Below, piece by piece: positions 26,834 to 35,313 of a stretch of DNA of 64,000 bases. Numbering within the stretch: position 1 is the first letter of the stretch; every line of letters begins with the position of its first letter. Source of the DNA: Streptomyces sp. P3 (GTDB lineage Bacteria > Actinomycetota > Actinomycetes > Streptomycetales > Streptomycetaceae). The notes under the pieces were generated by a model. It was not told the origin of the DNA and did no database searches. It worked only from the letters and a program-made list of their open reading frames with translations. The position numbers and the translations under genes were made by a program. The DNA is taken from positions 186,001-250,000 of the forward strand of contig JAFEKX020000001.1 in assembly GCA_016893485.2 (NCBI GenBank). Direction: 5' to 3'.

Positions 26834-27522
26834 TCACAGGGCGGTAGGCGTCAGACCTTGGGCACGCCAGACGGTGCCCCGCCGTTCGTGGGCGAACAAC
26901 TCCTCGACGGCGTGGGCGACACGGGGACCCACCTCGCGCTCCAGGAGGTACAGGCCCAGGTCCAGCCCAGAGGTGACACCGGCACCGGTGATCAGGTCGC
27001 CGTCGTCCACGACACGGGCGTGGATCGCGTGTGCGCCGGTGGCGTCGAGCATGTCGAGGCCCAGGTGGTGGGTCGTGGCATGACGTCCCTCCAGCAGACC
27101 GGCCATGGCCAGGACGAGGGACCCGCCGCAGACGGTGGCGACCGTGATCCCGGGGTCGTCCATGGCCTGCTCGAGCAGTGCGGGCAGTCCCGTGGTCAGC
27201 GTGCGTCCCAGAAGCACCGGGATGAACTCGTCCTGCTTCCGGCCACCGGCACCCACCTCCTCCTCCGGGACCTCCCGGGTTCGCCCACCCGGCCGAAGGC
27301 GCCGGGCACAAGAAGCATGTCCGCACGTTCCAGATCCACGGCGCCCACAGCGCGCAACGCCAGTGCCCCGATGCCACTGGTCACCTCACGCGGGCCTTCG
27401 GCGGAGACCAACTCGACGGTCACCGCGCCACCCGACGCCGAACCGCCGGCGTGCAACACCTCGTACGGGGCAATGACATCGAGCGGATCGAAGCCGTCGA
27501 ACAGCACGAACTGGATGTGCAT
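26834..27522 (-). pseudogene. DJ-1/PfpI-family protein, one frameshift
   Basis: The N-terminus is a typical DJ-1 fold start (MHIQFVLFDGFDPLDVIAPY, then ELVSAEGPREVTSGIGALA). After a shift near 27255 the second frame carries the nucleophile elbow (DPGITVATVCGGSLVLAMAG with Cys), then HHLGLDMLDATGAHAIHARV and ITGAGVTSGLDLGLYLLERE. GlxA/isonitrile hydratase-like members share this layout. Restored length is about 229 residues. The ATG at 27522 follows GAAGGA by 7 nt. The substrate is unknown. Confidence 0.8.
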
Positions 27523-27671
27523 GGTGGAGTCCTTCAAAGTCGATCTGCTTCGGACGCTCCGAATTCAACCGACTGCCGTCCCGTTCCCCAGTGGCATTGG
27601 TGCCGTATCCCAACGGGTTATAGCCACGACCTGCCCATGCGGCGCAGCGACTTCAGGCGAAGTCCGCCTCG

Positions 27672-31058: not shown

Positions 31059-31711
31059 TCACACGAGGTGGGCGAAGACCACCAGGTTCTCGGTGTAGTC
31101 CTTGGCGGAGTGGTCGTAGTTGCCCGCGCAGGTGATCAGGCGGACCTGGGCGTCGGGGTGTCCGCGTACACGCGCTCGTCGGGGAAGTCGTCCTTCTCGA
31201 ACGTGTCCGAGCTGTCGACAGCGAACGTAGCCGTACGGCCGTCGGACCGCTTGACGCTGAACCTGTCGCCCTTCTTCAAGTCGCTCAGACCGGCGAACAC
31301 GGCGGCGGAGGTCTTGGTGTCGACGTGCCCGGCAATGATCGCCGCACCACGCTCACCGGGCGAGGCACCTTTGGCGTACCAGCCGACCATGTTCACGTCG
31401 TCCGCCGGCGGTGGTTCGAGCCGGCCCGAGTCGTCGGTGGCGAGTTCGGTGAACGGCGCGTCGACCTCGATCTTCGGAATGAGCAGCCTCGTGGGCTCGG
31501 CCCGAGGCAGGTACTTGCCGGACAGGTGGGGCGCCGAAGACGCGGCGGGGGCCGCCGCAGCGTGGGACATACCGGTGGGGCCGGACGGATCGTCGTGACC
31601 GCGGAACACGCTCATGGCCATGACGATCACGATGCCCGTGCACCATACGGCCCATGCCAGGCGTCGCCGGGGATTGCGGGTCTCGGCGGGAAAGGTCGAA
31701 CGGACTGCCAT
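31059..31711 (-). pseudogene. Class F sortase, one frameshift
   Basis: An N-terminal membrane anchor (RLAWAVWCTGIVIVMAMSVF) precedes a sortase barrel: ATRLLIPKI-like entry (PTRLLIPKIEVDAPFTELAT), GRLEPPPADDVNMVGWYAKG, catalytic His in AAIIAGHVDTKTSAAVF, and, in the second frame, catalytic Cys in VRLITCAGNYDHSAKDYTEN. Class F sortases are actinobacterial transpeptidases with poorly known substrates. The frame breaks at the G run 31155-31158 (one base short). Restored length is about 217 residues; the ATG at 31711 follows GAGGTGG. A probable substrate gene lies directly upstream on the same strand. Confidence 0.85.
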
Positions 31712-31972
31712 CGGGCACCACCTCATCGGGTCGGGCAGGGAAGCAAACCAGCGGCGGTCAGGCTCCCCGGACGTACGGCGAGCGTGGTGACCGCGAAAGA
31801 AGCGGCGGAGCGCAGCCGGGGAAGCGCTGCGTCTCGAGTCGAGGACGCGGTGCGTCGGGCGCGCCCATGGGGCTTTGGGCCATGCGCCGACAGCCAGGGG
31901 GCTAGCGAAAAGTCAGCCGGGCCGCCACGGAGTACGGGGTGGCGGCCCAGGCCACTATGTCGTCAGGCATGG

Positions 31973-32515
31973 TCAGGCCACACCGCCCTCGTTGTTCCTG
32001 CGACGCATCACGTAGGCACCCGCGGCCACGAGACCGAGGACCGCGACACCGCCGGCCGTGACACCCGGCGTGGCGAGCGCGCCGCCACCGGTGTGCATGC
32101 CGCCGTGCGGCTTCTCCTCCTCGTCCCTACCTTGCTCGTCCCACGATCCTCCGTCCTGCTCGGAGTTCCAGGAGCCCTTTTCCTGGTCCGAACCCGAGGA
32201 CTCCTTGTCCTTGTAGGTCTCCGGATCGAACTTCTTGTCGCCCTTGAACGAGTCGTCCGTCTTGACGACCGTCAGCGCGCCGCCGCCGGTGTGCATACCG
32301 CCATTCGGCTTCTCGTGCCACGAACCCTTGTCGTGGTCGCTGTCTTTGTCGTGCTCCCTGCTGTAGGAAGAGGAGGAGTCGTCGCGCTCCTTCGTCGAGG
32401 AGGACGAGGAGTCGTGGTCCCCGTCGCCGAGCGTGGCGGCGTAGGCACCAGGGGCGGCGATCGCGAGAGCGGCGGTGGCCGTCGCGGCAGCAAGGAGCAT
32501 GCGGGCAGATCGCAT
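31973..32515 (-). CDS. Surface protein, probable class F sortase partner
   Basis: An intact 180-residue secreted, membrane-anchored protein. Signal peptide MRSARMLLAAATATAALAIA cut after AYAA. The mature part is extremely hydrophilic and Ser/Asp/Lys/Glu-rich (SSSSSTKERDDSSSSYSREH), with the motif GGMHTGGGAL twice: in the middle (KPNGGMHTGGGALTVVKTDD) and near the end (KPHGGMHTGGGALATPG). The second copy directly precedes a membrane helix (VTAGGVAVLGLVAAGAYV) and a basic tail (MRRRNN). It has the layout of a sortase substrate but no LPXTG, so GGMHTGGGALA-TPG may be the sorting signal. The sortase gene is 261 bp downstream. Confidence 0.75.
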   Translation of the reverse strand: MRSARMLLAAATATAALAIAAPGAYAATLGDGDHDSSSSSTKERDDSSSSYSREHDKDSDHDKGSWHEKPNGGMHTGGGALTVVKTDDSFKGDKKFDPETYKDKESSGSDQEKGSWNSEQDGGSWDEQGRDEEEKPHGGMHTGGGALATPGVTAGGVAVLGLVAAGAYVMRRRNNEGGVA

Positions 32516-32873: not shown

Positions 32874-33560
32874 AAGACCGTGTCCTATGTGGTGAGGCGG
32901 ACGAAGCGTTCTTAGCAGCAGAGGCGGCGGCGAGACCGAGGAAGGCCAGGTAGTTGCGGGGATGGCGCTCACATCGGGGGCCGAGTCTGCGGTAGCCGGA
33001 CAGCCACGACATCGTGCGCTCGATCATCCACCTGCGGCGGCCCAACAGTTCGCTGGACTCGATGCCTTTGCGCGCGATCCGGACTCCGATGCGCTTGCCG
33101 CGCAGCCATTTTCGCAAGCTGGCGTGGTCGTAGGCTTGTCTGCGTGGAGGCGTTGTGGCGCGACGATCCCGACGAGGAGGGCCAGTCCGTTCGCGTCCGA
33201 CAGGACGTGCATCTTGGCGCCCGGCTTACCCCGGTCCACGGGGCTCGGGTCTGTGTGTTCGCCCCTTTTTAGCCCTGCCGTGGGCGGTGTCGAGGACAAC
33301 GCGGATGACGTCGATGAGCCCGGCGTCGTCGAGGCGGTGCAGCACGGCTTCGTCCACGCAGGCCCAGACGCCGGCTCTCGACCAGAGCAGGAACCGGCGG
33401 TGGGCGGTCGACTTCACTATCCCGAAGCACGGCGGCAGTTGACGTCAGGCGCAGCCGCTAACCAGGACGTAGATGGTGGCGGCGAACAGCGTCTCACCAG
33501 GCGTGCGGGATCAGCGGCTTCGCGATCTCCCACAGACCATCCGGAACAATCCAACTCCAC
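32872..33560 (-). pseudogene. IS5-family transposase, deleted and frameshifted
   Basis: In order on the minus strand: PDGLWEIA-like N-terminus in broken frame (about 33545), HRRFLLWSRAGVWACVDEAV, LHRLDDAGLIDVIRVVLDTA, DRGKPGAKMHVLSDANGLAL (first catalytic Asp region), a deletion where the second Asp block should be, then KRIGVRIARKGIESSELLGR, RRWMIERTMSWLSGYRRLGP (catalytic Glu) and HPRNYLAFLGLAAASAAKN. At least three frame changes plus the deletion make it inactive. Confidence 0.8.
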
Positions 33561-33831: not shown

Positions 33832-35313
33832 ATGGTTCACTCCGAGGAGTACGGCGGCACACACGCCCACGCGTCCGACGCACACCTCACGGAACTGCTG
33901 CGCGCCGACACGTCCACGCTCTACCCAGCCCTCCAAGAACTCCGCGCCCGGCACCAGCCGTCCGTCCTGTCCTACGCCCGCCTGTGCACCACGAGTGAGC
34001 CCGCGGCACGGCAGCTGGCGGCGCAGGCGTTCACGCTCGCGGCCCGCGAGACGGCACGCGGCGTCGATCCGGGGTCCCCTGGCGTCACCAACTCCTGCTC
34101 CTGACCGGGCGGGTGGCCCAGTCCTGGTCCCTGGACGACCGCTCGGTCGGCCTCGACGCCGGCCTCCTACTGCTTCTCAGCACGGCGGCCCCGAGGCCCA
34201 CCATGCTCCCGGCCTTCCAGTCCCTCCCCTCCCGTACACAGGGCCTGGTCTGGTACGGCGTCGTCGAGCAGGAACCGCCGGCCGTGACCGCCACCTTCCT
34301 GGGCCTCACCCGTGAGGACGTCGTCCACGGCACCGAACAGGCCCTCCAGGCCATGGCCCAGGCCTGTCTGAAGTCCCGTCTGGCCGCGTCCGACGACCCG
34401 TGCTGCGGCGACTTCCGGCGCCTGATCGAGGAGTCGGTGCGCCCCGACACCCCGGGACAGCGCCGACCTGCACGCCCACATGGCGCACTGCGCCCACTGC
34501 ACGGGCGCGTACGAGGAACTGACGGCACTGCGGGACGCGCCGCGGGCGACGCTGGCGGAGGGCCTGCTGCCCTGGGCGGGATCGTCGTACGTACGGCGGG
34601 ACCGCGCGGAGGCGGCGGGCAACCCTCTGGGCACTGCCCCGACTTGGTCACCCTCCCGCCGGCTGGTGCTGGCCTCCGCAGCGCTGGGTGTGGCGCTGGT
34701 GCCGCTGCTGTTCTTCCTGCTGCGGCCGGGGACGCGCCGCGCCCCGGGGCGGCGGGGACGGTGGCGGTGCCGTCGACCCCGACGGAGGTGACGGTGACGG
34801 CCACGATCCCGGTGACGCAGTCGCCGACGCCTCCCAAGTCACATCCCCGAAGCGGAGTTCAAAGCCGACCAGGTCCGCAGGCCCCACGCCTACTCCCTCC
34901 CCTCCCCGCTCACGCGCCCAACGGCACGTACGCGCAGGTGGTGAACGTCTCCACGGGCCGGTGCCTGGACATCCGGGACGGTGACCTGACGGAGGGCACG
35001 GATGTGATCACGGCCCCCTGCACCTCGTCGGCCACCCAGCTGTGGCGGGTCGATGCGGCACGCGGGGTCGTGCAGTCGTCCGCCGACTCGGACCTGTGCC
35101 TGGACAGCCGGGGTCGGTGGAGAAGGGGGTCGGTGTCTGGGAGTGCGACTCGGTGGACGGCGGCCACGGCGACAACCTGAGGTTCACGGTGGACTCCGAC
35201 GGCGTGATCCGCCCGGCGATCGCGATCGAGACGGGGGTGACACCAGAGGGGGCCGAGGGGTGTCGCTGGTGCCGTTGAGCGGGGGCGCGGAGCAGCGGTG
35301 GCGGGCGGGGTGA
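33832..35313 (+). pseudogene. ECF-sigma-like / zinc-finger / transmembrane / ricin-lectin fusion protein, frameshifts
   Basis: Joined frames give about 490 residues. The N-terminus resembles sigma region 2 (LRARHQPSVLSYARLCTTSE, ARQLAAQAFTLAARE), then region 4 (LPSRTQGLVWYGVVEQEPPA, TFLGLTREDVVHGTEQALQA). A ZAS-like zinc finger follows (HAHMAHCAHCTGAYEELTAL, H-x3-C-x2-C), one TM helix (RLVLASAALGVALVPLLFFL), a Thr/Pro stalk and an extracellular ricin-type trefoil (NGTYAQVVNVSTGRCLDIRD, SATQLWRVDAARGVVQSSAD). Single-chain sigma/anti-sigma fusions with carbohydrate-binding tails have been described among actinobacterial ECF groups. Shifts lie near 34080, 34455, 34750 and 35115. Start: ATG 33832 after GAGGCGG. 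Confidence 0.75.

Follow-up and report, generated by a model that had tools for sequence, protein, structure and literature searches.

The minus strand of the window, as we call the whole stretch of 64,000 nucleotides from Streptomyces sp. P3 analysed here, carries a gene for a small stalk-like protein, predicted to be a surface protein, directly before a gene for a class F sortase. Where a classical substrate would have its LPXTG pentapeptide, the stalk protein has a glycine-rich motif, GGMHTGGG (hereafter the HTG motif), and the same motif is found once more in the middle of the protein. From the analyses below we consider it likely that this element, in the general form PxGG(M/V)x(T/A)GGG(A/G)L, is the sorting signal of the adjoining class F sortase and takes the place of LPXTG; the predicted cut falls after the Thr and before the Gly, and the protein would then be joined to the cell wall.

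A first-pass annotation of this DNA had described the protein as similar to a sortase substrate, without LPXTG and with KPxGGMHTGGGAL present twice, and this description was borne out. Read by eye, the sequence has a signal-peptide-like N-terminus, an acidic stalk region rich in Ser, Asp and His, and a predicted transmembrane (TM) helix that is followed directly by RRR at residues 171-173. The order of motif, TM helix and basic C-terminal residues thus appears to be that of LPXTG and LAXTG substrates, and neither pentapeptide is present in the 180-residue sequence. Both copies of the motif sit within KPxGGMHTGGGAL and were also recovered by a DNA pattern search, being the sole exact matches of the pattern GG[FLIMV]HTGGG in this 10-Mb genome, where the protein itself has no second match at E<=1e-3. 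A Pfam scan of the stalk protein gave no anchor family at E<=1 and nothing over any cut-off. Homologs of the protein numbered 689 at E<=1e-3, and the homolog analyses were performed with the best 120 of these. They contain from one to six xxTGGG copies per protein (two copies in 84 of them and three in 25), and the core P-x-G-G-M/V-H-T-G-G-G-A/G-L is common to the terminal and the internal copies, with the sequences diverging beyond it; this conservation is biased upward, since the homologs were recruited by their likeness to the window protein.

The sortase open reading frame (ORF) begins 246 bases past the stop of the stalk gene. Its assignment to class F, also made in the first-pass annotation, is confirmed by NF033748 (E 4.5e-46, 156.3 bits), with a score below the curated cut-off of 166, but the frame as assembled holds the catalytic His and terminates before the catalytic Cys stretch, which was found as a second match of the class F profile (E 3.1e-9). 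Searching the genome contigs with the window sortase gave six relatives. The gene is intact elsewhere, because the frame of a relative from Streptomyces sp. M41 (L070; 86% identity in the best tblastn segment) is uninterrupted. NF033748 scores this relative at 206.7 bits and another member of the same clade (L065) at 207.1 bits, both above the cut-off; in the intact relatives inspected the catalytic His and Cys stand together in one frame, and the predicted structure of the M41 protein has a sortase fold. A sequence search of the PDB with a profile of these sortases returned two weak chains, and the structure listings included 5uus, an entry by the name of SrtF from Corynebacterium diphtheriae. 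As a side observation, in 133 of the 134 class F Cys segments of the fetched loci the last hydrophobic strand is preceded by an Asn (N[VLIT][VI]..), at a position that may be that of the catalytic Arg in other sortases.

The DNA pattern was found in 81 of 150 genomes of the same genus and a reversed control pattern in 3 of the 150, and the possibility that the motif is a chance repeat was rejected on this comparison. Across the order, the pattern was present in 147 of 293 genomes, in two of nine genera. We fetched 76 loci among the matches listed, and 53 of their 76 motif ORFs showed a TM-like stretch and a basic tail. The first-pass annotation had proposed to look for the motif ahead of the final TM helix in the neighbours of class F sortases, and the outcome was in its favour: in the Streptomyces loci fetched, a class F sortase on the same strand adjoins 48 of the 53 TM-tailed motif ORFs and is missing beside five. 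Neighbours were counted within 1.2 kb on the downstream side, and the flank fetched for L040-L069 was about 1.5 kb. In the order-wide set, which added 26 new loci, all 20 TM-tailed motif ORFs have a class F sortase adjoining them. Around the motif matches judged to be non-coding, class F sortases were found in 0 of 14 and 0 of 5 fetched stretches, a non-coding frame being here our own reading of an ORF with no tail and no stalk and not an annotation. A further group, recorded as truncated stalks, is a mixture of contig ends (L048, L103), true stalks with a variant last copy (L052, L107) and non-coding frames (L091, L099, L100). The HTG motif is linked to class F sortases in Streptomyces.

A second sample was taken from the sortase side and comprised 70 class F sortases, namely all 65 that scored above the cut-off among 11 contiguous genomes, plus five from the window's own genome. 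Within about 1 kb of 60 of them there is a TM-tailed ORF bearing a motif of the type G[VMA]x[TAG]GxG, on the same strand in 50 cases, and no such partner is present near the remaining ten. The partner motifs include GHVQTGVGG, GSVKTGVGG, VHAGGGG, GVRGGLGGS, GVEAGFG, GGVAAG and GVGAGLGG; a first general expression had matched the neighbours of 36 of the 70 sortases, and eight types drawn up by hand took its place. At a number of loci (L125, L131, L137, L144, L149, L154, L160, L168 and L174), GGLGG-type sortases are flanked by two TM-tailed candidates, one per strand, and the two often differ in their version of the motif (for example GVRGGLGGS and GVHAGEGGS). We also observed a GGVAAG-type partner with two copies, RGGVAAGD... 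and RGGVAAGE... (L135:2765-3304, minus strand), so that the HTG type is not entirely alone in repeating its motif.

In a FastTree phylogeny of 152 sortases, a single clade with a support of 98 holds 59 of the 60 rows labelled HTG. The tree spans the sortase domain only as far as a point shortly ahead of the Cys, the profile having been built from the window ORF, and its set holds some loci twice (for example L050 and L150). The label of one sortase, L132, was set by hand; with it counted, the HTG label requires one change on the tree, the joining branch having a support of 20. The VAAG and GGLGG types require two changes each. All labels together require 20 changes compared to a shuffled mean of 82.3, a value as low being seen in none of 200 shuffles, in a test that counts nine partnerless rows as one group and is inflated by relatedness.

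At the level of whole genomes, the pattern is present in 71 of the 76 genomes with an HTG-type sortase and in 10 of the 74 genomes without one, among the same 150. The Fisher value for this association is 3.5e-25, which ignores relatedness; the call of an HTG-type sortase is a cut at 1e-53 chosen after viewing the data, and the genome lists were copied by hand. Of the ten genomes with the pattern alone, eight have matches in non-coding frames, one (G139) has a TM-tailed motif protein whose locus (L067) ends 331 bases downstream, and the tenth (G094) was not inspected. The five genomes with the sortase alone were readable in three cases; in G112 the stretch ended at the contig and G102 was not fetched. 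The three readable genomes have partners with GGVDAGGG three times (G034), GGVHAGGG twice (G077) and GGVKAGGG twice (G144). In another genome (G075) the pattern match lies in a non-coding frame, and the true partner has GGVHAGGG four times; the partner at L224 carries GGVRAGGG copies and its sortase falls inside the HTG clade. Proteins mixing Thr and Ala copies also occur. With these variant-partner sortases included, 69 of 69 rows belong to the HTG clade, in a comparison that excluded L132 as well as six rows with gaps or long branches. Because the sortases of the variant partners are all within the clade, we read the second variable position as tolerant and the Thr as replaceable by Ala. Judged from these sequences, the candidate signal of the HTG clade is GG[VMI]x[T/A]GGG, with an X as tolerant as that of LPXTG.

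Copies of the motif also occur away from a sortase, and part of the loci surveyed for these were hand-picked as isolated or otherwise of interest. Thirteen secreted-looking proteins from six genomes end a few residues past GG[VMI]HTGGG with no TM-like stretch following (loci L081-L085, L193, L213, L214, L216, L217, L219 and L220), and no class F sortase was found in the fetched stretches around them. Eight of the 13 are chaplins with a His/Lys-rich linker, which all pass the PF03777 gathering score of 21 with 93.1 to 96.8 bits. The other five are small, His-rich proteins, and the four of this kind that were scanned gave no Pfam family match. In 120 listed of 3128 chaplin clusters, an HTG tail is present in 20 and L[PA]xTG within the last 60 residues in 86. 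Remote motif proteins are found in seven genomes, six of which encode an HTG-type sortase with an identity of 64 to 100% to the query. A DUF4394 protein with an HTG motif and a TM tail was observed as well (L222:5310-6392, plus strand), with no sortase in its 12.5-kb stretch, and makes a second kind of remote substrate-like protein.

We then compared the pair with known systems. The first-pass annotation had suggested an unrecognised sorting signal, which is supported by the pairing with the sortase and by the single HTG clade but has to be moderated, as NCBIfam already contains a signal related to it, GVDTG_CTERM (NF058571). This cousin has a C-terminal GxxTG motif, a TM helix and a basic tail, and of the 30 loci returned for it, 28 include a class F sortase at a distance of up to about 1.5 kb; the kind of signal is thus not wholly unrecognised. 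The window protein differs from it in having HTG where GVDTG_CTERM has mostly [KQRD]TG, in the GGG that follows, in its repeated copies and in a stalk in which no domain was found. Membership in GVDTG_CTERM was rejected, the window protein scoring 19.1 bits and another HTG partner 17.5 with a cut-off of 29; one of ten partner proteins scanned passes this cut-off. With the classical LPXTG signal, the HTG signal shares the order of motif, TM helix and basic tail, an X that varies, and a Thr-Gly (or Ala-Gly) at the corresponding position, and it differs in GG[VMI] for LP, in the GGG after Thr and in the copies inside the protein.

Within the genus, the available part of PMC5148588 describes SrtE1 and SrtE2 of Streptomyces coelicolor with LAXTG chaplins, a similar case of sortase-displayed proteins with chaplins among the cargo. 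The sortase class and the motif are different there, and the HTG chaplins have no TM tail and a His/Lys-rich linker before the C-terminal HTG copy. Motifs are given in the same part of that source for each sortase class from A to E, but not for class F (PMC5148588). In Actinoplanes missouriensis, SrtF1 and SrtF4 adjoin AMIS_11010 and AMIS_36440, proteins with a signal peptide, a TM helix and a basic tail and without a known pentapeptide, which the authors suggest may be substrates of the adjoining class F sortases; the part of the paper available proposes no motif for them, and the likeness is drawn from its description and not from sequences (PMC13251363). Exact-word searches of one open-access library turned up no paper that mentions the HTG motif.

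Several observations weigh against a role of the motif as the signal of the adjoining sortase. The genome G229 has two TM-less motif proteins and no HTG-type sortase, its best sortase match being 42% identical and probably another paralog; no other single result speaks as strongly against a reading based on the sortase alone. Motif copies are found in the middle of proteins and at C-termini without a TM helix, unlike a classical sorting signal, and four of the five TM-tailed ORFs without a sortase neighbour (L040, L058, L106 and L112) are not accounted for by a contig end. On the tree, L132, with a GAMHTGTG partner, falls outside the HTG clade, and the other motif types are clustered and do not form single clades (five changes for xTGxG, four for AGFG and three for AGGGG); both the definition of the motif types and the score threshold for an HTG-type sortase were set after seeing the data. 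The class F sortase of Cutibacterium acnes, which by name belongs to the same class, is said in the available part of PMC13257024 to use LPXTG, and a quadruple deletion of class F sortases in A. missouriensis gave no phenotype according to the part available of PMC13251363. On the question that the first-pass annotation had itself raised, whether the motif is equally common away from class F sortases, the TM-tailed cases, most of them paired with a sortase, support its reading. Copies remote from class F sortases are present in TM-less secreted-looking proteins, and G229 is one of the six genomes that encode these.

In the mechanism that we favour, the HTG-clade sortase would recognise motifs of the GGMHTGGG type, for which KPHGGMHTGGGALAT is a candidate peptide. 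Cleavage is predicted between Thr (or Ala) and Gly because of the analogy with LPXTG, and the conserved following Gly is in line with this. The stalk protein would be exported and anchored to the cell wall, presumably with peptidoglycan as the acceptor. The membrane-proximal copy would naturally be the first to be used. Internal copies are expected to be recognised too, as they have the same core and lie in a low-complexity stalk, and the TM-less tags on chaplins and small His-rich proteins would be further substrates, reached in trans.

How many copies are read is the point on which an alternative comes closest, and we give somewhat less than an even chance to the possibility that the membrane-proximal copy alone is a sorting signal, the internal ones being left uncut and having arisen merely as repeats multiplied in a low-complexity stalk. 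Classical sorting signals work adjacent to the TM helix, and most other types of class F partner have a single copy of their motif (18/18 for AGGGG, 10/10 for GGLGG, 9/9 for xTGxG, 5/5 for AGFG and 3/3 for GAGLGG), both of which speak for this explanation. The internal copies, on the other side, hold the core P-x-G-G-M/V-H-T-G-G-G-A-L with the same end residue as the terminal copies. They also match the variant of their own terminal copy in 114 of 140 cases (83 proteins) versus a shuffled mean of 102, with 114 reached in 2 of 2000 shuffles, an agreement that could also result from homogenisation of the repeats or from relatedness. Anchoring by one cut only is weakened by these results and not rejected. 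A more extensive scheme, which we regard as speculative and rather unlikely, is that the HTG-clade sortase reads every copy, so that the stalk would be a polyprotein yielding pieces that end in GGMHT, for ligation, or begin with GGGAL, as amine acceptors, and that repeat segments, chaplins and His-rich proteins would be linked into a covalent surface layer.

A different explanation concerns the window strain only, in which the sortase gene could be a genuine pseudogene, with a stalk protein that is an orphan or is served by another class F sortase. The frame that stops before the Cys stretch is in favour of this, but we find it unlikely given the indel-rich look of the assembly (74.69% complete, with its 9,998,232 bases divided between 2 contigs). 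A second class F sortase of this genome matched the class F profile as two adjoining pieces (G000:C1:1347972-1348423), and another was only partly matched (G000:C1:3357294-3357635). A further sign of indels is a DJ-1/PfpI protein divided between two frames (window 26837-27537, minus strand), and one class F partner, L005, appears broken. Because this second class F sortase, the DJ-1/PfpI gene and the L005 partner are broken as well, the interruption of the sortase frame is probably an assembly error.

It is quite unlikely, in our judgement, that the motif is a module for non-covalent binding or self-association, or a metal site formed by its His, with the sortase acting on something else. Such a module would suit the presence of one to six copies per protein, their positions in mid-stalk and at the TM-less ends of chaplins and His-rich proteins, and the motif proteins of G229. 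The last copy, however, stands directly before the TM helix in the TM-tailed partners, and in the partners of other class F sortases this position is taken by different variants. Metal binding by the His as the main role was rejected, as Asp, Lys or Arg is found there in partners of the same sortase clade. Finally, the Gly-rich motif, TM helix and RRR resemble GlyGly-CTERM or MYXO-CTERM tails and the homolog P0020 is named 'MYXO-CTERM domain-containing' in one source, but a cut by another intramembrane or surface protease of the rhombosortase or myxosortase kind is very improbable given the class F sortase adjoining 48 of 53 and 20 of 20 TM-tailed ORFs and the HTG partners following one sortase clade (no search was aimed at rhombosortases).

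The features of the two genes are collected in Table 1. Just upstream of the stalk gene there is a possible fragment of a DDE transposase (window 32875-33117, minus strand; 22.9 bits with a cut-off of 23), and an ORF further on (window 34113-35177, plus strand) has a ricin-type lectin domain at its end.

Table 1. Positions of the stalk protein gene, the sortase gene and their elements in the window.
Feature	Position	Strand	Basis
Substrate-like stalk protein, 180 aa, ATG at 32515, stop included	31973-32515	-	ORF list; homologs
Signal-peptide-like N-terminus, residues 1-26	32438-32515	-	Read from the sequence, no dedicated predictor
Internal GGMHTGGG copy, residues 72-79	32280-32302	-	DNA pattern search; conserved in internal copies of the 120 listed homologs
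Membrane-proximal GGMHTGGG copy, residues 138-145	32082-32104	-	DNA pattern search; conserved in terminal copies of the 120 listed homologs
Predicted C-terminal TM helix, residues 152-170	32006-32062	-	Read from the sequence, no dedicated predictor
Class F sortase, first, longer piece: N-terminal TM, sortase domain, catalytic His (GHVDT)	31136-31726	-	PF04203, E 2.3e-16; NF033748
Class F sortase, C-terminal Cys stretch (LITCAGNYD...), other frame	~31060-31157	-	Class F profile match C1:217062-217280

For S. coelicolor, five class F sortases versus two of class E are reported in the available part of PMC5148588, and the physiological role of class F sortases is called unknown in that of PMC13251363. 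The class F sortases of Streptomyces adjoin proteins with GxxTG-like signals, and among them the HTG clade is the odd one, by its repeated signal and by the remote TM-less tagged proteins of some genomes. Such gene pairs supply many class F sortases with a candidate substrate and a candidate motif, and therefore one panel of peptides could test much of class F. A cleavable GGMHTGGG tag, if true, would be a new and possibly orthogonal handle for protein ligation. If the TM-less tags on chaplins are likewise true substrates, a part of the hydrophobic surface coat would be fixed covalently along a pathway distinct from that of SrtE and LAXTG.
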